Source: Alphaproteobacteria bacterium
Lineage (GTDB): Bacteria; Pseudomonadota; Alphaproteobacteria; Reyranellales; Reyranellaceae
Direction of reading: 5' to 3'
DNA: 64,000 nucleotides
NCBI GenBank assembly: GCA_019635875.1
Contig: JAHBYP010000003.1
Location: 372,001 to 436,000 of the forward strand
Below the pieces are notes generated by a model, which saw only the letters and a program-made list of their open reading frames with translations, did not search any database and was not told the origin of the DNA. Below are positions 6,330-58,331 of this stretch, in pieces. Position numbers and translations under genes: made by a program. Position 1 is the stretch's first letter, and each line of letters begins with the position of its first letter.

Positions 6330-9300
6330 CTAGACGAAGTCGCTGCCCGTCCAGACGTAGCCGGCCTGCGCGGTGATGGTGTGGCCGTCCGACAGCACGG
6401 CGATGTTGGCGCTCGCACCCAGATGATCGAAGGTCACCCCTGCGAGGTGGACCCTGTCGCCGTCGGCGGGATTGAAGTCGGTGATGATGTCGTTGCCGTC
6501 GCCCGAGGCGTAGGCGAAGACGTCCGCGCCAGCGCCGCCGGTCAAGGTGTCGTCGCCGGCACCGCCCGTCAGGGTATTGGCCGCGTCGTTGCCGATCAGC
6601 ACATTGTCGGCGGCATTGCCGGTCGCGGAGATCGACGAGGAGCCGCTCAGCAGCAGCTCCTCCAGCCCGTCGCCCAGGGTATAGCTCACCGAGCTTTCGA
6701 CGCGGTCATAATCGTTCAGGGCGGTCCATTCCGCGCCGATCACGGTCCACTCGCTGCCGGGCAGCAGCGACGCGGGCGCGGTGACGGCGGTGCGTGTCGC
6801 GCCATCCATCTGCCACAGCTCGGTGCCGCCCTCGCTGGTGCGCCACGCGATGTCCGCCTTGCCGTCGCCGGTGAAGTCGCCGACCGCGCCCACCGACCAG
6901 CCGGTCGGCGCGCCGTGCGACAGCGCGATGGTGGCACCGGATGACCCACCTTTCATCTGCCAGATGCTGGCCGCACCCGTGGCGGAGTTGTGCCAAAGCA
7001 GGTCCGTCCTGCCGTCGCCGGTGAAATCGGCGGCGCCCGCCACCTGCCACTCCGGTCCGAGCTTCAGCGACAACCACGTCGACGTGGTCGCGCTCACGCC
7101 GTCCATGTGCCACAGGCTGCCGTAGCCACCGCTCTTGTGGTGCCAGAGGATGTCGGCCTTGCCGTCACCGGTGAAATCGCCAACGCCGGCGATGGCCCAG
7201 CTGGTATCGACCGTCGACACATTGGCCGCGCCGGTCCTGGCGCCGGCGGCGTCGAGATACCAGACGAGGTTCTCGCCTGTGCCGACATTGCGGAAGAGAT
7301 GGTCGTCGGCGCCGTCGCCGTTGAAATCGGCGCGGCCTTCGAGGATCCAGCCCTGCCCCGGCCGTGTCGTCGCGACCGGCGCTCCAGGACCCGACAAGAC
7401 GTCCCATGACGCCACCTCGCCGGTGACGAGGTTCTGGCCATGGAGCGTGATCGTCGGCGTGCCGGCGGTCTCGATGATGACGTCGCCGGCATGGTCGACG
7501 CGGTACACGTCGTCGCCCGCGCCGCCCACGAGCGTATCGATGCCGCCGCCGCCGTCTAGGGTGTCTCGGCCGTCGCCGCCATAGAGAATGTCGTTGCCCA
7601 GGCCGCCGTGGAGGATGTCGTCGCCGGCATCGCCGTGGAGCGTGTCGACGTCGCCCGGGCTGTCGCCGCCATGGAGCAGATCGTCGCCATCGCCGCCGAA
7701 CAGCGCGTCGGCGCCATCGCGGCCCAGCAGCGTGTCGTCGCCCGCCGCCCCCCACAGGGTGTTGGCCGCGGCATTGCCGGTGAGGACGTTGTCGGCGCCG
7801 TTACCGGTGCCGTCGATCGCCGCCGTGCCGCCAAGCGTCAGATCCTCGACGCCGCTGCCCAGCGTGTAACTCACCGAGCTCTCGACGCGGTCGCGGTCGT
7901 CGAGCGCCGTCCACTCCAAGCCGATCGTCGTCCACTGGCTGTCGGGCAGCATGCTCGCGGGCGTGGTGACAGCGACACGCGAGGCGCCATCCATCTGCCA
8001 CAGGCTGGTGCCGCCGGTGTCGGTGCGCCAGGCGATGTCGGCCTTGCCGTCGCCGGTGAAGTCGCCGACCGCGCCGACCTGCCAGCCCACCGGCGCCGCC
8101 GACAGCTGGGTGATCGCCGTGGCCGTGGCGCCATTCATCTGCCACAGAGTGGTCAGGCCGGCGGTGGGATTGCGCCAGAGGATGTCCACCTTGCCGTCGC
8201 CGGTGAAATCGGCGACGCCGGCGACCTGCCAGTCCAGCCCGAGCTGCTTCGGCAGCCAGGTCGAGGCGGTCGCGCTCACGCCGTCCATCTGCCACAGCGT
8301 GGCGTGGCCGCCGCCCTGGTGACGCCAGAGGATGTCGGCCTTGCCGTCGCCATTGAAGTCGCCGACACCGGCGACGGCCCAGCCGGTATCGACCGTGGCG
8401 ACCGACGCGGAACCGGTCTGCGCGCCGCTGTCGTCGAGATACCAGACGAGGTTCGCGCCCGTGTTCTGGTTGCGCCAGAGGCTGTCGACATGGCCATCGC
8501 GGTTGAAATCCGCGCGGCCGGCCAGCTTCCAGCCCGATCCGTCCGGCGTCGTCATCGCCGCCGGCGCGCCGAGCCCTTCCTCGCCGACGCGCCACGCCGT
8601 CACGGCACCGCTGCCGTTGCGGGCGTACAACGTCAGTACCGGCAAGGGCTGCTCGACGATCAGATCGTCCACATGGTCGACGCGATAGACATCAGCGCCC
8701 CCGCCGCCGGACATGGTGTCGATGCCGACCCCGCCGTCGAGCGTGTCGTCACCAGTGCCGCCATACAGGGTGTCGTTGCCCGCGCCGCCCAGGAGGATGT
8801 CGTTGCCGGCACCGCCATGCAGGATGTCGTTGCCGCCGGCGCCATCGATCACGTCGTTGCCGCCCAGCCCGTCGAAGGAATCATCGGAGCTGCTGAGAAC
8901 ACGCTGATCGGCCAGCTCCGTCGCCGGCTCGACGACGGGCTCGGGCGGCGCGATGAAGGGGTCGGCGCCGGTCACCGCAATGGATGGTCCGGCGATGACG
9001 TTGCCGCTGCCGGCGATGGCCAGCGTGCCGCTGCCCTGCACGTTGGCGAGCCGGGTCGTGTCCGCGCCGCCGCCGTAGTACTCGTTGCTGACTCCGATCA
9101 GCGTCAGCGTGTCGCCCGCCAGGTAGCCGCCGATGGCGACCTGCTGCGGTCCCCAGGTCGAGAAGGTGTTGTCGACGAAGCTGCCCGATCCCTCGACAAT
9201 CGCGCCGGTCCCGAGATTGTTCTCGAAGCCGTTGTTGCGCACCAGGGTGATGCCCGAGCTGGCGTAAAGCCCGGGGCCATCGTTCTCGACGAAATAGGCA

Positions 9301-10880
9301 CCGCGCACGGTCATGTCGCGCGCTCCGTCATCGAGGATCAGGCCGGCGCCACCGTTCTTGCGAAAGCCGCCGCCGATCCACTCGAGATCGCTGGGCATGA
9401 CGCCGGCCGAGGTCCCGGCGAAGCGCGCGCCGCCACCGTCATTGCCGTGCACCCACGAGTCGAACACCGTGCCGCGCACGTTGCCCAGGACATCGAGGCC
9501 GACGCCGCGGACATGCTCGATGTTGACGTGGCGGATGTCGATGTCCACCGAACGGTCGGCGCCATCGGCGACGATCCGGATGCCGGCCGACTCCGTGCCG
9601 TTGCCGATGATCGAGAAGTTCGACAGCGTCAGCGCGCCGACCTGCACGCCTGCCGCGACGACGATCTCGATCACCGGGCCGCCATCGGCAACCTGCGAGA
9701 AGAGCTTGGCGCCGCCCAGATCGATGCCGGTCGCGGCCTGGCTGGAGCTGGTGATGTTGATCACGATCGGCGCGCTGATCATGTAGCTGTTCTGGCTCGA
9801 CAGCTTCACCAGCGTGCCATCGGCAATGGCCGAGCGAAGCGCGCCTTCGACGACGCCGGTGCCGGCGCTGTCGGGCAGCGGCAGCATCGCCACCGGGCTC
9901 GGTGCCTCGAGCGTGGGCAGCGCCACGCCCTGCGTGGCCACGGTCACGTGCGCCAGGTTGCCACCGCCGGCGCCGCTCACCAGGACGTTGGCACCGGTCA
10001 CGACGGTCTCGCCGTCGCTGCACAGGAACAGGCCGCCACTGCCCTGCACGTTGGCCAGCACGGTGGTGTCGGCGCCGCTTCCGGTCCAGGTGCTCTCGTT
10101 GCCGATCAGCGTGGCGTTGCCGGTCAGGTAGCCCTTGATGCCGACACTCTGGGCGCCGGAGCTGGAGAAGTCGTTGTCGTTGAAGCCGCCGAAATTCTGG
10201 AACCAGATGCCGGCGCCCTGGTTGTCGACGAAGTCGCTGGAGCACACCGAGGTGATGCCCCACGCGGCGCTGATGCCGACGCCCTGGTTGCCGGTGAACG
10301 TGGCGCCCTCGACGCTGATGTCGCGCGCGCCGTTGTCGAGCAGGAGGCCGGGACCGCCATTGTCCTCGAAGCCGCCGCCGAGCCAGCGCAGCGCGCTGGT
10401 GGCACCGCCTTCCGGGCTGTGCGCGAAGCGCGCGCCGCCCTCGCCGTTGCCGATCATCCAGGAATTGCAGATCGTGCCCTCGAACACGCTGCCTTCGATG
10501 TCGAGGCCGTAGCCGCCGACGCCCTCGACGGTCACGTCGCGGATCGTCCAGTTGTATAGCCAGCTGTCGTTGCTGGGCACCACGATGCTGATGCCGTCGC
10601 CCTCCAGGCCGTTGCCCTGGATGGTGAAGTTGGACAGCTGGAGATAGCGCAGGTCGACGCCGGGCTCGACTACGAGCTGGATCACCGGCTGGCCGGCCGG
10701 CACCTGCGAGATGAACGTGGCACCGCCGCCATCGAGGCCGAGCGCCCCCTGGACCGTGCTGGTGACATGAATGACGATCGGCTCGGTGATCGTGTAGGTC
10801 GCGGGGGCGATGTGGGCGACATAGCCGCCCGCAATGGCCGCACTCAGGGTGCCGCCAAGATCCAGGGTCGTCGTGCTCAT
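6330..10880 (-). CDS. Giant RTX exoprotein: tandem beta-helices, RTX and FG-GAP modules
   Basis: A 1516-residue protein with internally duplicated architecture. Residues about 1-310 and 340-650 are two homologous right-handed beta-helix domains (pectate-lyase-like). Each contains NFxIxGNG, a WxGGGF segment and a ADTTxLANVQGSG segment. RTX nonapeptides (GGxGxDxLx) occur at about 665-735, 993-1127 and 1388-1467. Two FG-GAP/VCBS-like blocks (DFTGDGKADIxW, LWQMDG) lie at about 757-990 and 1143-1387. The C-terminus is acidic and aromatic, with no N-terminal signal peptide, as for type I secretion substrates. Calcium-dependent folding outside the cell is expected. No ABC/MFP/TolC secretion genes are nearby. 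Role unknown: adhesin or polysaccharide-active enzyme. Confidence 0.88.
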   Translation of the reverse strand: MSTTTLDLGGTLSAAIAGGYVAHIAPATYTITEPIVIHVTSTVQGALGLDGGGATFISQVPAGQPVIQLVVEPGVDLRYLQLSNFTIQGNGLEGDGISIVVPSNDSWLYNWTIRDVTVEGVGGYGLDIEGSVFEGTICNSWMIGNGEGGARFAHSPEGGATSALRWLGGGFEDNGGPGLLLDNGARDISVEGATFTGNQGVGISAAWGITSVCSSDFVDNQGAGIWFQNFGGFNDNDFSSSGAQSVGIKGYLTGNATLIGNESTWTGSGADTTVLANVQGSGGLFLCSDGETVVTGANVLVSGAGGGNLAHVTVATQGVALPTLEAPSPVAMLPLPDSAGTGVVEGALRSAIADGTLVKLSSQNSYMISAPIVINITSSSQAATGIDLGGAKLFSQVADGGPVIEIVVAAGVQVGALTLSNFSIIGNGTESAGIRIVADGADRSVDIDIRHVNIEHVRGVGLDVLGNVRGTVFDSWVHGNDGGGARFAGTSAGVMPSDLEWIGGGFRKNGGAGLILDDGARDMTVRGAYFVENDGPGLYASSGITLVRNNGFENNLGTGAIVEGSGSFVDNTFSTWGPQQVAIGGYLAGDTLTLIGVSNEYYGGGADTTRLANVQGSGTLAIAGSGNVIAGPSIAVTGADPFIAPPEPVVEPATELADQRVLSSSDDSFDGLGGNDVIDGAGGNDILHGGAGNDILLGGAGNDTLYGGTGDDTLDGGVGIDTMSGGGGADVYRVDHVDDLIVEQPLPVLTLYARNGSGAVTAWRVGEEGLGAPAAMTTPDGSGWKLAGRADFNRDGHVDSLWRNQNTGANLVWYLDDSGAQTGSASVATVDTGWAVAGVGDFNGDGKADILWRHQGGGHATLWQMDGVSATASTWLPKQLGLDWQVAGVADFTGDGKVDILWRNPTAGLTTLWQMNGATATAITQLSAAPVGWQVGAVGDFTGDGKADIAWRTDTGGTSLWQMDGASRVAVTTPASMLPDSQWTTIGLEWTALDDRDRVESSVSYTLGSGVEDLTLGGTAAIDGTGNGADNVLTGNAAANTLWGAAGDDTLLGRDGADALFGGDGDDLLHGGDSPGDVDTLHGDAGDDILHGGLGNDILYGGDGRDTLDGGGGIDTLVGGAGDDVYRVDHAGDVIIETAGTPTITLHGQNLVTGEVASWDVLSGPGAPVATTRPGQGWILEGRADFNGDGADDHLFRNVGTGENLVWYLDAAGARTGAANVSTVDTSWAIAGVGDFTGDGKADILWHHKSGGYGSLWHMDGVSATTSTWLSLKLGPEWQVAGAADFTGDGRTDLLWHNSATGAASIWQMKGGSSGATIALSHGAPTGWSVGAVGDFTGDGKADIAWRTSEGGTELWQMDGATRTAVTAPASLLPGSEWTVIGAEWTALNDYDRVESSVSYTLGDGLEELLLSGSSSISATGNAADNVLIGNDAANTLTGGAGDDTLTGGAGADVFAYASGDGNDIITDFNPADGDRVHLAGVTFDHLGASANIAVLSDGHTITAQAGYVWTGSDFV

Positions 10881-33906: not shown

Positions 33907-34701
33907 TCACTCCTCAGGCTGACCGGTGCCTGATTCTCCGTCGCTTTTTCCGCGTTTTCGGGTGCGCTTGGCATACTCGCCGAGCTTGCGGTTCACCTTG
34001 CTCTGCGGAATCACCACCGTGTCGCGGTAGTCCTGCCAGTCGGCGTCGGTCAGATCGTCGAGGCTGCCGACGGTGTCGAAGGCGCTCAGCAGCTTGTCGG
34101 AGAACAGCCAGCGTGGCAGCGGCTGGGCCTGGAATAGCGGCAATTCGCGCTTCACGAGGATCGGCACGCCGGTGCGGCGCAGCCGGATGTTGACGAAAAG
34201 CGGGCCAAACCAACGGTCTGTCTCGACCACGCCCTCGTAGTTCTCCCAGCCACCAGGCTGCGGCAGGTTGGCCACGGGGCGAATCAGCGTGTTCCAGCCC
34301 GGTGCCGAGCGGCCCACCCAGCCGCTCCAGATGTTGACGATGCCGGGTTCGGGCATCGCGCCCAGGAAGGGCACCGCGTAGCCCTTGCAGTCGGCCGGCG
34401 CCTTCTCATCGAAGTGCTTGGCAAAATTGGGGAAATGCTGGCGCGACAGAGGCTTCCACTCGGGCTGGCCGGCATGGCTCCAGAGCACGTCTGCGCCGTC
34501 CCAGAGCAGGCCGAAATCCATTGGCGGGAAGAAGTACCAGCCGAAGGATGACGCCGTGCGGATCGGTTCGCAGTAACGGAAGGAGCGCGTCGGAATGGTT
34601 CCCCCGGCGGAGGCGTCGGCGCGGATCGGCTTCCGGGCCGTGGGAATGAAGCGATAGAAGGTCATCAGCTTCTCGGGAATCGCCGGCTTGTCGGTCGCCA
34701 T
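33907..34701 (-). CDS. DUF6065-like protein, unknown function
   Basis: A 264-residue cytoplasmic protein without signal or membrane segments. It resembles DUF6065 proteins in its opening (MTFYRFIPTARKPIRADA) and an aromatic early segment (FRYCEPIRTASSFGWYFFPPMD). It also holds NIWSGWVGRSAPGWNTL and PLFVNIRLRRTG, and ends in a charged tail. The family assignment is from memory and moderate. It lies downstream of the repeat-peptide gene on the same strand, separated by a terminator, so it may be translated from read-through transcripts. Role suggestion: partner or modifying factor of the peptide (inference). GTG at 34704 is an alternative start. Confidence 0.6.
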   Translation of the reverse strand: MATDKPAIPEKLMTFYRFIPTARKPIRADASAGGTIPTRSFRYCEPIRTASSFGWYFFPPMDFGLLWDGADVLWSHAGQPEWKPLSRQHFPNFAKHFDEKAPADCKGYAVPFLGAMPEPGIVNIWSGWVGRSAPGWNTLIRPVANLPQPGGWENYEGVVETDRWFGPLFVNIRLRRTGVPILVKRELPLFQAQPLPRWLFSDKLLSAFDTVGSLDDLTDADWQDYRDTVVIPQSKVNRKLGEYAKRTRKRGKSDGESGTGQPEE

Positions 34702-34725: not shown

Positions 34726-34766
34726 AAAAAGAGAAAAGGCGAGTCAGCCCGAAGGCTGCCCTCGCC
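34726..34766 (-). terminator. Intercistronic terminator between peptide and DUF6065-like genes
   Basis: On the minus strand a hairpin (GGCGAG-GG-CAGCC, TTCG loop, GGCTG-A-CTCGCC) is followed by TTTTCTCTTTTT. It lies 93 bases beyond the peptide stop and 25 bases before the next start. A terminator at this place would make the peptide transcript more abundant than that of the downstream gene. Confidence 0.8.
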
Positions 34767-34858
34767 CTAACCCTACCATTCGGTCGTGTGGAGCTTCCAG
34801 CGCCGCACCGCTCCTACCAGTAGCGGTACTTCAGCTGCGCTTCACACTACCAGATGTA

Positions 34859-35068
34859 TCAGATGAAAAGCGGCGACATGCCGCCCATCTCGACCTCGAC
34901 GGTCTCCACGAAGAGCGGCGACATGCCACCCATCTGGACGAAGAGCGGCGACATGCCACCCATCTCGACCTCGACGGCCTCGCCGAACAGGGGCGACATG
35001 CCACCCAGCTCGACTTCCACTTCCTCGATAAACAGCGGCGACATGCCGCCCATCATCACAGCGATCAT
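34859..35068 (-). CDS. Multirepeat peptide: five MGGMSPLF units with VEVE linkers
   Basis: A 69-residue product: MIAVM, then units of 15, 15, 10, 15 and 9 residues of the form MGGMSPLF-x-E-x-VEVE (Leu replaces the first Met in unit 2; unit 3 lacks the acidic linker; unit 5 ends the protein). It has 11 Met, 11 Gly and 10 Glu, and no Lys, Arg, His, Cys, Asp, Asn, Trp or Tyr. The minus strand is favoured by an AGGAG site six bases before the ATG (35075-35079) and by codon differences among the SPLF copies (CCG/CCC, CTC/CTG/CTT, TTC/TTT) that are silent only in this frame. A longer start at 35152 would add a 28-residue, Cys-containing leader. I recognise no family. Confidence 0.75.
   Translation of the reverse strand: MIAVMMGGMSPLFIEEVEVELGGMSPLFGEAVEVEMGGMSPLFVQMGGMSPLFVETVEVEMGGMSPLFI
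34869..35053. repeat. Five direct copies of a 20-bp unit
   Basis: Copies start at 34869, 34914, 34944, 34989 and 35034, with spacings of 45, 30, 45 and 45 bases, all multiples of 15. The unit encodes the MGGMSPLF core of the minus-strand peptide; one linker is shortened by exactly five codons. Confidence 0.9.
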
Positions 35069-35176
35069 CGGACTCTCCTCATCAGTGCTGGTGCCTGAAG
35101 AAGGCTCGTCCACACACCCCCCGGCGCATGGGACCTCTTCGCCCAGACCCATCCTCGTTCAACGTTGTGTTTTCAT

Positions 35177-35219: not shown

Positions 35220-37205
35220 TCATTCTTCGGGTATCCCGGCCCTTCGCAGCCCTTCGAGGTAGTGAATCAGGTCTTCCTCACGCTCGAGCGGGTAGTTCTT
35301 GCGATAGGCGGCAATGGTCAACTGGTGCTGCTGCGCCCGCAGCCGCTCGACATAGGGTTTGGCCTCCTCCGGACGGCCCAAATGGCCCAAGGCAACAATC
35401 AGCGGCTGCAGAACGGCGGCGAAATTCGGCCGATCCACCAGGATCGGTTGCGCCGCGGTGACGACGTCCTCGTAGCGCCGGGCAACCGCCAGGGAGATGA
35501 CGTTGACCGTCTCCCAGAAATACACAAAGGGGTCGAACGGGCAGAGGCGGCGATAGCGCTCCAGGCGCTCGAAGGCCTCCTCCGGGCGCCCGCGATAGCT
35601 GCAGAGCAAGGCGGCGAAGGCCCAGCCCCAGCCGAAATTCGGGTTGATCGCCAGGGAGCGGTTGTGCAGCCGCTCGGCCGCCTCATAGTTGCGGTGGACG
35701 AAGACCTCGACATGCCCGGCGAAAGACAACGCCATCGCATCATCGGGGTCGCACTCGACCGCGAGACGGGCGTGACGCTCGGCCCCTTCGATCGCCGCCT
35801 GCTTGTCCTTGGCCCAGCCCTCGCCGATCTCGAAGACGTGCATGAAGGCCATCCAGGCATGCGCGCGGGCATACTCCGGATCGAGCACCAGGGCGCGGCG
35901 CAGGAACTCGCCGGCCATGCGGAACGATTCGCCGTTCGCCTGGTACAGCAGCGGCACGGCGCGCAGCACGTTGTCGTAGGCGTTGCGATTCTCCGGTGGC
36001 CGACGGCGCGCGCGATCGATCTCGGCCTGCAGCAACTTGGGGTCGAGCTGACCGACGATTTCCCGCACGATCTCGTTCTCGAGCTCGAAGACCTCGGCGA
36101 AGGACGCCACGCGCATGTCCGACCAGACCGTACGGCCGTCGTCGCAATCGACCAGGCGCACCGCGATGCGCACGCGCTCGGCGCTGCGCCGCACCGCGCC
36201 CTCGACGGCGTAGCGCACGTTCAGGCGCCGGCCGACATCGCGCGGGTCGGCGTCGATGCCGCGGTACATCCCGGTCGAGCCCGAGGCGATCACCGACAGC
36301 CAGCGGAAGCGCGACAGACCATCGACGATCTCGTCGGCGAGGCCGTCGCCAAGGTAGTCCTGGGTCGGATCGCCGCCGATGTTGCGGAACGGCAGCACGG
36401 CAACCGACAATTGCACGGCGTGCGCGTCGTCCTGCAGCAGATCATCCGCGCCGGACGCCGCCGGTCCACCGCTTTCGCCGGTCAGCCGGTCGCCCTTGAT
36501 GCGCTCATAGAGCGTGACCGTCGCCGGCCCCGGCTTGGCGTCGAGCACGCGCTTGAGCGTTTCGGTGGCGATCTGGAACTGGCGCAGCGCCGAGGACTTG
36601 TCGCCGCGGCGCGCATACGATTCCATCACCGCGCGATGCGCTTCCTCATGCGCGGGATCAATGGTCAGCACCGCCCGGGCGACCGACTCGGCGTCCGACA
36701 CGTCGCCGGCGCCAAGCCGCTCGCGCAGCAGCGAGGCCATGGCGTTGAGCGCCGTATCGCGCCGGAAGGCACGTTCCGAATACAACCAGTCGTCGAATGG
36801 CCCGCCGATCGAACCGATATCGGCCAGCAGGTCGCCGCCATAGAGCGCAATCACCTGGCGGCGATCCTCGGGCGTGCCGACGGCCAGACGCTCGAGCTCG
36901 CGCGCGTCGATCCAGACCTTGTCGAGACGGATATGCAGGGCGTCGCGGTCGACCTGCAGCGCCTCCTCGTCACGGCCACGGAAGGCGGCCCGCAGCTCGG
37001 TCACGCTCTGGCGCAGGCTGCCGCGCGCCTGCTCCTCCTGGCGATCGCTCCACAGCAATCCCGCGAGCTTTTCGCGCGTCGCCGAGCCGCCCGGCGCAAG
37101 CGCCAGGAACGCCACCATGCCGCGCGTCTTGCGCGCACGAGGCGTCACATCGGTACCGTCTGACGCGAGGAGGCGGCAGCCGCCAAGAAGGTTGATCTTC
37201 AGCAT
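35220..37205 (-). CDS. SARP/BTAD transcriptional regulator with TolB-like and TPR domains
   Basis: A 661-residue regulator. Residues about 1-95 form an OmpR-type winged helix (MLKINLLGGCRLLASDG ... RGMVAFLAL ... SLRQSVTELR). About 100-235 form a BTAD helical-repeat domain. About 265-385 resemble the TolB-N/FlgO-like segment of signalling ATPases and cyclases (VAVLPFRNIGGDPTQDYLGD). TPR-like repeats fill 400-640. There is no membrane segment. The family activates secondary-metabolite or stress genes by binding direct repeats. It is encoded immediately upstream of, and on the same strand as, the repeat-peptide gene. ATG at 37205 is chosen; GTG at 37217 is possible. Confidence 0.88.
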   Translation of the reverse strand: MLKINLLGGCRLLASDGTDVTPRARKTRGMVAFLALAPGGSATREKLAGLLWSDRQEEQARGSLRQSVTELRAAFRGRDEEALQVDRDALHIRLDKVWIDARELERLAVGTPEDRRQVIALYGGDLLADIGSIGGPFDDWLYSERAFRRDTALNAMASLLRERLGAGDVSDAESVARAVLTIDPAHEEAHRAVMESYARRGDKSSALRQFQIATETLKRVLDAKPGPATVTLYERIKGDRLTGESGGPAASGADDLLQDDAHAVQLSVAVLPFRNIGGDPTQDYLGDGLADEIVDGLSRFRWLSVIASGSTGMYRGIDADPRDVGRRLNVRYAVEGAVRRSAERVRIAVRLVDCDDGRTVWSDMRVASFAEVFELENEIVREIVGQLDPKLLQAEIDRARRRPPENRNAYDNVLRAVPLLYQANGESFRMAGEFLRRALVLDPEYARAHAWMAFMHVFEIGEGWAKDKQAAIEGAERHARLAVECDPDDAMALSFAGHVEVFVHRNYEAAERLHNRSLAINPNFGWGWAFAALLCSYRGRPEEAFERLERYRRLCPFDPFVYFWETVNVISLAVARRYEDVVTAAQPILVDRPNFAAVLQPLIVALGHLGRPEEAKPYVERLRAQQHQLTIAAYRKNYPLEREEDLIHYLEGLRRAGIPEE

Positions 37206-37562
37206 CCCCGAACACACTGAGGGACAGACGCCAGCCCACCCCTTCTATCCAGCCTAGTTAATATATTATCACGCCTTGCGAAGAATTAACATCAATATAA
37301 CGAACTAACGAGAAATTATCACATGCAGTGACATTTTATCTGTAACGGACTGAAAAATATCAACGAATCATCGTCAATGTCCACTGGGATTCTGCCTCGA
37401 TTCTCACCGGAATCAGCCTTCACACGATGACATTGGGGAGCCGAATTGCACAAACGACTGAGCGAAATATGTATTGTTCACAGCACGCAAGCGCCACAAC
37501 GCACCCGCGCAGACGCGCCGTCCAGCGATGGCACGCCCCGCGTCCGAGCCCGCCCGCTCGCC
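37206..37562. other. AT-rich intergenic region upstream of the SARP-type gene
   Basis: About 350 bases without a supported gene. From about 37255 to 37480 the sequence is strikingly AT-rich (for example TTAATATATTATC) in a GC-rich genome. It contains one CATTGACGATG motif on the minus strand (37369-37379), similar to the TTGACGATG sites before the peptide gene. It probably holds the regulator's promoter; no single -35/-10 pair is convincing. Confidence 0.5.
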
Positions 37563-55573: not shown

Positions 55574-58123
55574 TCAGCGGCGGCGCTCGTCGCCACCCTT
55601 GTCGTCGCGATCGCGCCCCGGCGGCTGCTTGGCCTGCTCGGGCGGCTTGGCCCTGGGCTGCGGCGGCGCTGCCGGGGGCTTGGCCTGCGGCGGCGGTGGA
55701 GCCGGTGGCCGAGCCTGCTGCGGTGCCGGCGGTGCTGGCGGCCTGGCCTGAGGCTGCGGCGGCGCTGCCGGACGCGGCGGCGCGGCCTGTGGCGCCGGAC
55801 GCGGTGGCTCAGGCGGTTTGGCCTGCCGCGGCGGTGGCGGCGTCTGACGCGGTGGCTCGGCGGCCTTCGGCGGTGCGACCGGGGCCTTCGGCGGTTCCGC
55901 AGCCCTCGGCGGCGTCACCGGCGGCTTGGGCGGCTCGGCAGCCTTCGGGACGGCTGGCTTGGCCGGAGGCGTCGCCACCGGGCGATCGGCCGGCTTGACC
56001 GGAGGCGTCGCCACCGGTCGATCGGCCGGCTTGCCCGGTGGAGTCGCGACCGGCGGTGCTGCCGGCTTTCCGGGTTCGCCCGGCCTGGCCGGCGGCGTCG
56101 CCACCGGACGGTCAGACGGCTTGCCCGGCGGAGTGGCTACAGGCGGCGCTGCCGGCTTTCCGGGTTCGCCCGGCCTGGCCGGCGGCGTTGCCACCGGACG
56201 GTCAGACGGCTTGCCTGGCGGAGTGGCTACAGGCGGCGCTGTCGGCTTTCCGGGTTCGCCCGGCTTGGCTGGCGGCGTCGCGACCGGACGATCGGCCGGC
56301 TTGCCCGGCGGAGCGGCGACAGGTGGCGTACCCGGCTTCGCAGGCTCACCTGGCTTGGTCGGCGGCGCTGCAACAGGCGGCTCGGCCGGCTTCGGCGGTT
56401 CGCCCGGCTTGGCCGGCGGAGTCGCAACAGGCGGCTCGGCCGGCTTGGCAGGAGCACCTGGCTGAGGTGCGGCAGGCGCGGCTTGCGGCGCGCTGCGTTC
56501 AACCTCGCGGCCGTCGCGCGTACGCAGGCTCGGCAGCTGACGCTCGGCCGGTGCCGCCGTAGCGTCCGGTGCCGCAGGCTGGGTTCGCGAGATCCGCGGA
56601 CCCGGCGCTGTGGCGGTCGGGCGATCCTGGCGGGTCGGTCGGCCCAGCACCGGGATGTCAGCCAGCGGTGCACGCTGCACGTCGGCGCCCTGAGGCGGCG
56701 CGGCCGCCGCCGGCGGCTGCCCAGGCCTGGCTGCGGGCGCCGGTGCCTGGCCCGGTGCGGTCGGCGGCGTCACCGTCGCTGTCGTCGCGACGGTCGGCGC
56801 CGCGACGGGCGCGACCTGCAGGCGAGCCAGGCGATCAGGCTCGACGCGGATGGCGGCGCGATCGACGCGATCGCCGCGCAGGAACGCCCGCTGCGGCACC
56901 ACCGTCGAGAAGCGCTGGTTGGCGAAGGTCGGACGTGGTTCGTCACGGAACCGCGGGTCGTCGCGGAAGCGCGGGTCGCGGCGGCGCTCGACATATTCGA
57001 TGCGCCGGTCGATGACCTCGACGTTGTAGACGTTGGTGACGTTGACGTTGCGGATGTACGTGCGGTTCGCCGTGTAGGGCGGCACGTAGACCTCGCGCGG
57101 CCCCAGCGGGAACCAGCCCACCGGTGCGACCCGGGCGCCGATCGCCAACGCCACGCCGGCGGCGGCCACGTCGACGAAGCCGACCACGGCCGGGGCATAG
57201 ACCGGACGCGCCTCGCGACGCGGCGGCACCCAGTACCAGCGACCCCGGTGGTTGACCCAGCGACCGTAGTGCGAGGGCGCGAAGCCCCAGGGCTGGTCAT
57301 CGATCCACGTCCAGCCCCACGGATCGACCCAGCGCCAGCGGCCATGGCGATACGGCGCCCAGCCCACCGGCACTGTGCGCGGAGACCAGACGCGGCCGTA
57401 ATCGCCCACCGTGCTCCACGAACCGTAATAGTCGAGCTCCTCGACGCCGGACATGCCCGCCGGCACGTACTGCACGGACTGGGTCATGACGATTTGGCGA
57501 TCACGCGGCGCCCATTCCGGCGGCATCGGCGGCGGCGCCATGCGCACCGTCTCGAATACCGGCCGGTCCGTGCCGCTCAGCACGCCGATCTCGCCGGCGC
57601 GTACGATCAGCTCGGTGCCATTGGTCGCGATCACGCGCGCGGAGCCGGCGCGCACGCCGACGCGCGTGGCATCGTCGACGGTGCCGGCCTCGATCATGTA
57701 GTCGCCGTCGCCGATCAGCGCCACCGTGGCGCGCGGCGTGAGCACCTCGACCTGCTGGCCTTGCTGCAGGGCCGCGGTCTTCACGTCGATGCGGCCCTGC
57801 GAGATGCGCAGCCGGAACTCCTCGTCGGTGAGCGCCAGCGTCTCGAGTTGCGTGCTGCCCTGCATGCGCAGGCGCGTGGCTCCGACGAACACTTCGGCCC
57901 GGCCGTTCGGCTCGGTCCACAGCGCGTCGCCGGACGTCATGGGGTAATTGATCGCTGCAGGTTGCCAGTTGGTCTCGTTGCGATCATGGAACGAGACCGT
58001 GCCGTTGACATAGGCGACGCGGCCGACGAGCCCCGGCGGATCCGCCGATTGCGCCCAAGCCGACGAGACGGTGACGAGGGCGGCAGCAACCACCACGCCC
58101 AGGCCACGCAGGAACTTGCCCAT
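55574..58123 (-). CDS. FecR-like/DUF6600 exported protein with proline-rich repeat tail
   Basis: An 849-residue envelope protein. A signal peptide ends at AWA (about 25). A FecR-like domain (about 30-200) has GRVAYVNGTVSF, GDALWTEPNGRAEV and RISQGRIDVKT. A Trp/Pro/Tyr-rich region (about 235-330) has YGRVWSPRTVPVGWAPYRHG, as in DUF6600 proteins. A long tail (about 430-849) is Pro/Ala/Lys-rich with 30-residue tandem repeats and a basic end (DRDDKGGDERRR). There is no membrane anchor, and no FecI-type sigma factor is nearby. It is probably surface- or peptidoglycan-associated. GGAGGAA precedes the ATG at 58123. Confidence 0.82.
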   Translation of the reverse strand: MGKFLRGLGVVVAAALVTVSSAWAQSADPPGLVGRVAYVNGTVSFHDRNETNWQPAAINYPMTSGDALWTEPNGRAEVFVGATRLRMQGSTQLETLALTDEEFRLRISQGRIDVKTAALQQGQQVEVLTPRATVALIGDGDYMIEAGTVDDATRVGVRAGSARVIATNGTELIVRAGEIGVLSGTDRPVFETVRMAPPPMPPEWAPRDRQIVMTQSVQYVPAGMSGVEELDYYGSWSTVGDYGRVWSPRTVPVGWAPYRHGRWRWVDPWGWTWIDDQPWGFAPSHYGRWVNHRGRWYWVPPRREARPVYAPAVVGFVDVAAAGVALAIGARVAPVGWFPLGPREVYVPPYTANRTYIRNVNVTNVYNVEVIDRRIEYVERRRDPRFRDDPRFRDEPRPTFANQRFSTVVPQRAFLRGDRVDRAAIRVEPDRLARLQVAPVAAPTVATTATVTPPTAPGQAPAPAARPGQPPAAAAPPQGADVQRAPLADIPVLGRPTRQDRPTATAPGPRISRTQPAAPDATAAPAERQLPSLRTRDGREVERSAPQAAPAAPQPGAPAKPAEPPVATPPAKPGEPPKPAEPPVAAPPTKPGEPAKPGTPPVAAPPGKPADRPVATPPAKPGEPGKPTAPPVATPPGKPSDRPVATPPARPGEPGKPAAPPVATPPGKPSDRPVATPPARPGEPGKPAAPPVATPPGKPADRPVATPPVKPADRPVATPPAKPAVPKAAEPPKPPVTPPRAAEPPKAPVAPPKAAEPPRQTPPPPRQAKPPEPPRPAPQAAPPRPAAPPQPQARPPAPPAPQQARPPAPPPPQAKPPAAPPQPRAKPPEQAKQPPGRDRDDKGGDERRR
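55990..56360. repeat. 90-bp tandem repeats in the proline-rich tail
   Basis: A 90-base unit recurs with an exact 90-base offset (for example positions 56081, 56171 and 56261). It encodes 30 residues of the type PPVATPPGKPSDRPVATP plus PARPGEPGKPA. Copies drift at the edges into shorter PGKPADRPVAT modules, a sign of slippage expansion. Confidence 0.8.
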
Positions 58124-58331
58124 GCGTTTCCTCCGCAAAAAGCCATTACACAAACGTCAGGTCGCACAGGCCGTTGCGTGGCGGGACGGAGGTCTTCTCG
58201 GGGCAAACCGTAACCGGCGGTGACCGACAAGCCCCCTGCACGGCGCATATCGGTCGCGCCGCATGACCGCTTGCGATCCGGCGCCCCAAGCCGTCAGTTT
58301 AGCCGCCGCAAGCAACGACGAAGGACGGTGG

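Follow-up and report, generated by a model that had tools for sequence, protein, structure and literature searches.

A multi-repeat peptide gene paired with a DUF6065-family gene in Reyranellaceae and other alphaproteobacterial lineages

Analysis of the window (the whole stretch of 64,000 nucleotides of DNA from a bacterium of the Reyranellaceae) revealed a minus-strand gene encoding a small peptide of tandem GGMSPLF cores which, judging from its pattern of silent changes, is genuinely protein-coding, translated and selected for its core, and which lies directly upstream of a gene encoding a DUF6065-family protein. The two products probably act together, in a manner so far undescribed. The reading proposed, with an about even chance of being right, is that the peptide strings together short linear motifs as a multivalent ligand of the DUF6065 protein, for which a dUTPase fold is predicted, and is made in excess over it. 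The features concerned are as follows.

33907..34701, minus strand: DUF6065-family protein, 264 aa (Pfam, 30.1 bits), of the peptide-paired clade, with a predicted dUTPase fold
34727..34767, minus strand: terminator-like hairpin (-20.4 kcal/mol) with T tract, between the peptide and DUF6065 genes
34859..35068, minus strand: multi-repeat peptide gene, 69 aa, five GGMSPLF cores, start MIAVMM..., with homologues
35075..35080, minus strand: Shine-Dalgarno sequence GAGGAG
35220..37217, minus strand: BTAD/TPR (SARP-type) regulator, adjoining the pair

The repeat peptide and its homologues

The minus-strand open reading frame 35152-34859 is present in the window, and the five-core peptide of 69 residues given in the preliminary description was recovered from it; read from the ATG at 35068 its sequence is MIAVMMGGMSPLF...MGGMSPLFI, with cores spaced 15, 15, 10 and 15 residues apart and one residue C-terminal to the fifth core. 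In 40 Markov-shuffled windows the 7-mer count per open reading frame never exceeded 2, versus 5 in the window peptide. The AGGAG site noted earlier is part of GAGGAG, which begins 12 nt 5' of ATG 35068 and is identical in four relatives (G001-G004), of which G001 belongs to the same genus as the window genome. A start at 35152, which would add a 28-residue leader containing VPCAGGC, is unsupported because in relatives the longer frame is broken by 1-nt indels just ahead of ATG 35068; by this comparison ATG 35068 is the conserved start.

Regarding coding selection, all differences between the core copies of the window peptide are synonymous (pS 0.40, pN 0), as had been remarked of the repeats before, while four of the five other frames show replacement changes only at these cores and the antisense frame sharing third positions with the peptide frame gave a value of 0.26. 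A comparison of silent and replacement changes in 14 peptides gave core pN/pS values of 0-0.17 with pS of 0.24-1.1, whereas ratios in the other frames were mostly above 1 or reflected replacement changes only; the antisense frame with coinciding third codon positions had intermediate ratios (0.13-1.0), as expected from the overlap. From the low pN/pS in its frame it follows that the peptide is translated and that selection acts on the sequence of its core, and the silent-change pattern rules out plus-strand coding or a repeat maintained at the DNA level.

Homologous repeats near DUF6065 genes and, in Reyranellaceae, SARP-type genes were indeed found in related genomes, comprising 19 further peptides of the GGMSPLF kind: nine come from Reyranellaceae and as many from another alphaproteobacterial family (f43), and one is encoded on a Rhizobium plasmid. 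The homologues of G001-G004 have GG[ML]SP[LV]F cores, those of genus g4 have GM[ML][AS]PxF cores joined by strongly basic linkers (KSKVKL and similar), a second locus in G011 (G011:C2) encodes nine GGMQPTF cores in 29-residue units, the f43 peptides have GNMSPxF cores with linkers mixed in charge, and the Rhizobium plasmid peptide has three ANKSP[AM]F cores. The consensus of 103 cores in 20 peptides is V-x-[LMIV]-[GA]-[GNM]-[MLK]-[SAQ]-P-x-F, the ninth position being also given as [ALTV]. The pattern behind the count of 103 demands P and F; with an anchor independent of these two residues, both were present in 92 of 92 true units; the nine remaining matches of this anchor lay in the linkers of G011:C2.

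Thus a conserved short motif is embedded in unconstrained linkers, with 2-11 core copies per peptide and linkers of 3-22 residues whose net charge ranges from -17 to +24 (acidic, basic or mixed). The acidic spacers first taken as a defining trait do not hold for the family, given the basic linkers of g4 and the mixed ones of f43. The last core ends at most three residues from the C-terminus in 19 of 20 peptides; the first begins at residue 5-7 in nine of the ten Reyranellaceae peptides, G011:C2 being the exception, and 19-39 residues precede it in the f43, Rhizobium and G011:C2 peptides. No credible match of the peptide family to Pfam and NCBIfam models was obtained; weak matches of the relatives' repeats (HIF-1, PBSX_XtrA, flagellin and others) were discarded as short or repeat-driven. 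The literature search returned no mention of DUF6065, nothing on the core sequences, and nothing direct on links with RiPPs, dUTPase motifs or SapC/cupin proteins.

Most units of the window copy hold two Met residues, from which Cu(I) binding by paired Met had been suggested. However, the core Met position is occupied by Met in only 77 of 103 cores and by Leu in 23 (with replacement in G003, G004 and G009) and Lys in three (Rhizobium), and it is DUF6065 alone that is conserved beside the peptide in all lineages. With Leu or Lys occurring in place of the core Met, Cu(I) binding is unlikely, and a Met-rich Cu(I)-binding peptide is given next to no weight as an explanation of the family.

Two other open reading frames with repeats occur on the minus strand of the window: a long one at 55574-58153 whose tandem repeats are rich in Pro and Ala (PVATPPA; 90-bp units), and one of 1516 aa at 6330-10880 in which GDGKADI recurs (FG-GAP-like) and which holds tandem units of 27 bp at 8702-8857.

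Gene pairing and the intergenic hairpin

At 20 of 20 loci, distributed over three bacterial families, the peptide gene directly precedes a DUF6065 gene of the same strand, no more than 1.2 kb away, and of 26 genomes of one order nine have both the peptide and a member of the DUF6065 clade and 17 have neither. In the tree the paired DUF6065 proteins group in a single clade (support 97/98), although long branches adjoin it; the window protein scores above the PF19541 gathering cut-off (30.1 versus 26.6 bits). Canonical DUF6065 proteins (PF19541) belong to the same Pfam family and share ETD and other core residues with the paired proteins, but fall outside their clade: none of 49 DUF6065 genes outside it (46 loci, mostly with about 1.5 kb of flank inspected) has a repeat peptide beside it. 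Some of these proteins are fused to other domains, namely Cupin_8/JmjC-type domains in three genomes (L073, L079, L082), which suggests a role of DUF6065 tied to protein oxygenation, and SapC in one (L061).

The strict co-occurrence with DUF6065 is at odds with the idea that the peptide is an independent beta-rich repeat protein with a structural or self-assembling role and has no more than an operon in common with DUF6065. Every unit has alternating hydrophobic/charged strands, as such a protein would, but the core spacing varies both within one peptide (15 and 10) and between lineages (10-29), which is unsuited to a regular solenoid, and this explanation is considered rather improbable.

Regarding the other neighbours, the BTAD/TPR regulator is conserved beside the pair in Reyranellaceae only and is absent there in f43 and Rhizobium, so that DUF6065 is the sole neighbour common to all lineages and the minimal unit is therefore the peptide plus DUF6065. 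In G011:C2 (L044:9520-15916) three tandem open reading frames related to the BTAD regulator are divergent from the GGMQPTF peptide gene. A modification enzyme, protease or exporter conserved across the peptide loci was not found; pieces of an MFS transporter lie downstream in the Rhizobium locus. A phage origin was rejected, as the window DUF6065 has no relatives in phages and viral contigs hold no f43-type peptide, and so were a plasmid origin (plasmid matches limited to Rhizobium and Sinorhizobium) and a defence origin (no match in PADLOC). In viral contigs L090, L092 and L099, DUF6065 genes adjoin DNA polymerase B genes, on both sides in L090 and L092.

The hairpin at 34727..34767 was not listed by a general consensus scan. 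Similar strong hairpins with T-rich stretches separate the peptide and DUF6065 genes at the other Reyranellaceae loci, differing in sequence and position between g1 and g4; that of G011:C2 has no T tract, and in L045 the best hairpin found by script is weak, with a longer one visible by eye. At those f43 and Rhizobium loci that were checked, the gap between the two genes is only about 20 nt and contains no hairpin. Because a terminator-like hairpin separates the genes in Reyranellaceae, partial termination there is suggested, with the peptide probably in excess over DUF6065.

Multicore RiPP precursors, such as those of microviridins/graspetides or cyanobactins, carry tandem short near-identical cores and have a conserved partner gene adjacent. 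The likeness to them drawn in the preliminary description stands for the small size, the repeated cores (103 in 20 peptides, 2-11 per peptide) and the single conserved gene alongside, but not for the rest: most Reyranellaceae peptides are leaderless (no N-terminal leader in nine, with the first core at residue 5-7 except in G011:C2, and an upstream frame that is not conserved), and no known RiPP enzyme, protease or transporter is part of the cassette or common to all lineages. The peptides might instead form a new leaderless multicore RiPP class, in which the MSPxF cores are each modified by DUF6065, possibly together with an enzyme encoded elsewhere, and proteases release many short copies. 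The hairpin would fit a precursor made in excess, the Cupin_8/JmjC-type oxygenase fusions outside the clade hint at protein hydroxylation, and the genomic pairing suits an enzyme-substrate relation equally well. Yet only the cores are conserved, the linkers are unconstrained and have no conserved cleavage sequence, the core Ser can be Ala or Gln, Cys, Thr and Lys are not conserved at any position, and the dUTPase fold is not known for peptide modification; a RiPP class is on balance unlikely, though the strongest of the competing explanations.

Predicted fold of the DUF6065 protein

The fold was predicted with AlphaFold2 from 55 aligned sequences for the G011:C2 relative, which is 42% identical to the window protein, and most of the DUF6065 domain had pLDDT over 90; a 10-row alignment gave a poor model (pLDDT 51). 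The best PDB matches of the G011:C2 model in Foldseek were dUTPases (E 9.4e-5), and VIA-align gave Z 10.6 with an rmsd of 4.1 over 122 residues. DUF6065 is thus predicted to have the fold of the trimeric dUTPases (PF00692), but the catalytic motifs PRSG, IDxxYRG and GGFGSTG were absent from all 48 DUF6065 sequences. Because the profile comparison with dUTPases was not significant, revealing no sequence homology, the link is one of fold alone, and with the motifs missing as well dUTPase function cannot be transferred to DUF6065. The window genome encodes a separate dUTPase of its own. Comparison of solved structures with the DUF6065 profile by sequence yielded no convincing match.

Motif V of dUTPases lies near their C-terminus. 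The repeat could supply in trans this missing lid or arm, its Gly/Phe core closing the active site of a nucleotide-processing enzyme of dUTPase fold. Motif V-type sequence occurs in none of the 48 DUF6065 proteins despite the fold, Gly and Phe are present in the core, whose last copy has a position near the C-terminus similar to that of motif V, and there is the DNA polymerase B neighbourhood in viral contigs. The core is, however, unlike RGxxGFGSTG, DUF6065 is without any known activity, and DUF6065 proteins outside the clade also lack motif V yet have no such peptide, so that this specific role is thought very doubtful.

A multivalent ligand model

A multivalent motif ligand fits best because the family combines conservation of the motif with freely varying linkers and copy number, a probable surplus of peptide and a single obligate partner. 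In this model each unit of about 10 residues (V-x-hydrophobic-G-x-M-S-P-x-F), laid out as a short beta-strand-like stretch, a glycine and a Pro/Phe plug, would be a binding site for the DUF6065 protein encoded downstream, and flexible linkers of unconstrained sequence would string 2-11 such sites together. Produced in excess over its partner, the peptide might serve DUF6065 oligomers (dUTPases being a family of trimers) as a scaffold or as a condensate-former, or act as a regulator or inhibitor occupying their pocket. To the coding selection on the cores, the strict gene pairing, the predicted fold and the intergenic hairpin, which are observed here, the model would add physical binding, an oligomeric DUF6065, an excess of peptide and a functional consequence, which we infer. 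The broader idea that a genetically linked string of near-identical motifs controls activity or assembly of a clade with dUTPase fold, for instance by a lid in trans or by condensates, is tentative and somewhat less probable than ligand binding as such.

The Rubisco-binding proteins EPYC1 and CsoS2 are multivalent linear-motif scaffolds with which the peptide shares a repeated short conserved motif, variable linkers and a globular partner, binding being presumed in the present case; unlike them, it is much smaller, belongs to a two-gene cassette and has a DUF6065 protein as its partner. Through the pairing, DUF6065 as a functionally uncharacterised domain acquires a specific partner that can be tested, and the natural variants (GG, GN or GM in the core, 2-11 copies, opposite linker charges) ease structure-function tests. 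A ligand role would make this a bacterial multivalent-motif system of a new kind, built on a dUTPase fold, and modification of the peptide would make it a new RiPP class.

Regarding a possible contact site, sequences of the paired clade contain an additional conserved segment, [FY]P..[FY]...F...P....GY..PF, located between the W-D-G and I-W-S-G stretches and absent from other DUF6065 proteins, which is a candidate docking site for the peptide. In an AlphaFold read-through model of the natural sequence (TGA as Trp), comprising two units plus DUF6065, the peptide was unstructured and not placed (pLDDT under 50), which weighs only lightly against binding because the peptide entered as a single sequence. 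Part of the segment, G-[YF]-x-x-P-F (GYSPPF, GYAPPF or GYAVPF in the product of 33907-34701 and its relatives), loosely resembles the MSPxF core, possibly as a pseudo-ligand or by chance.
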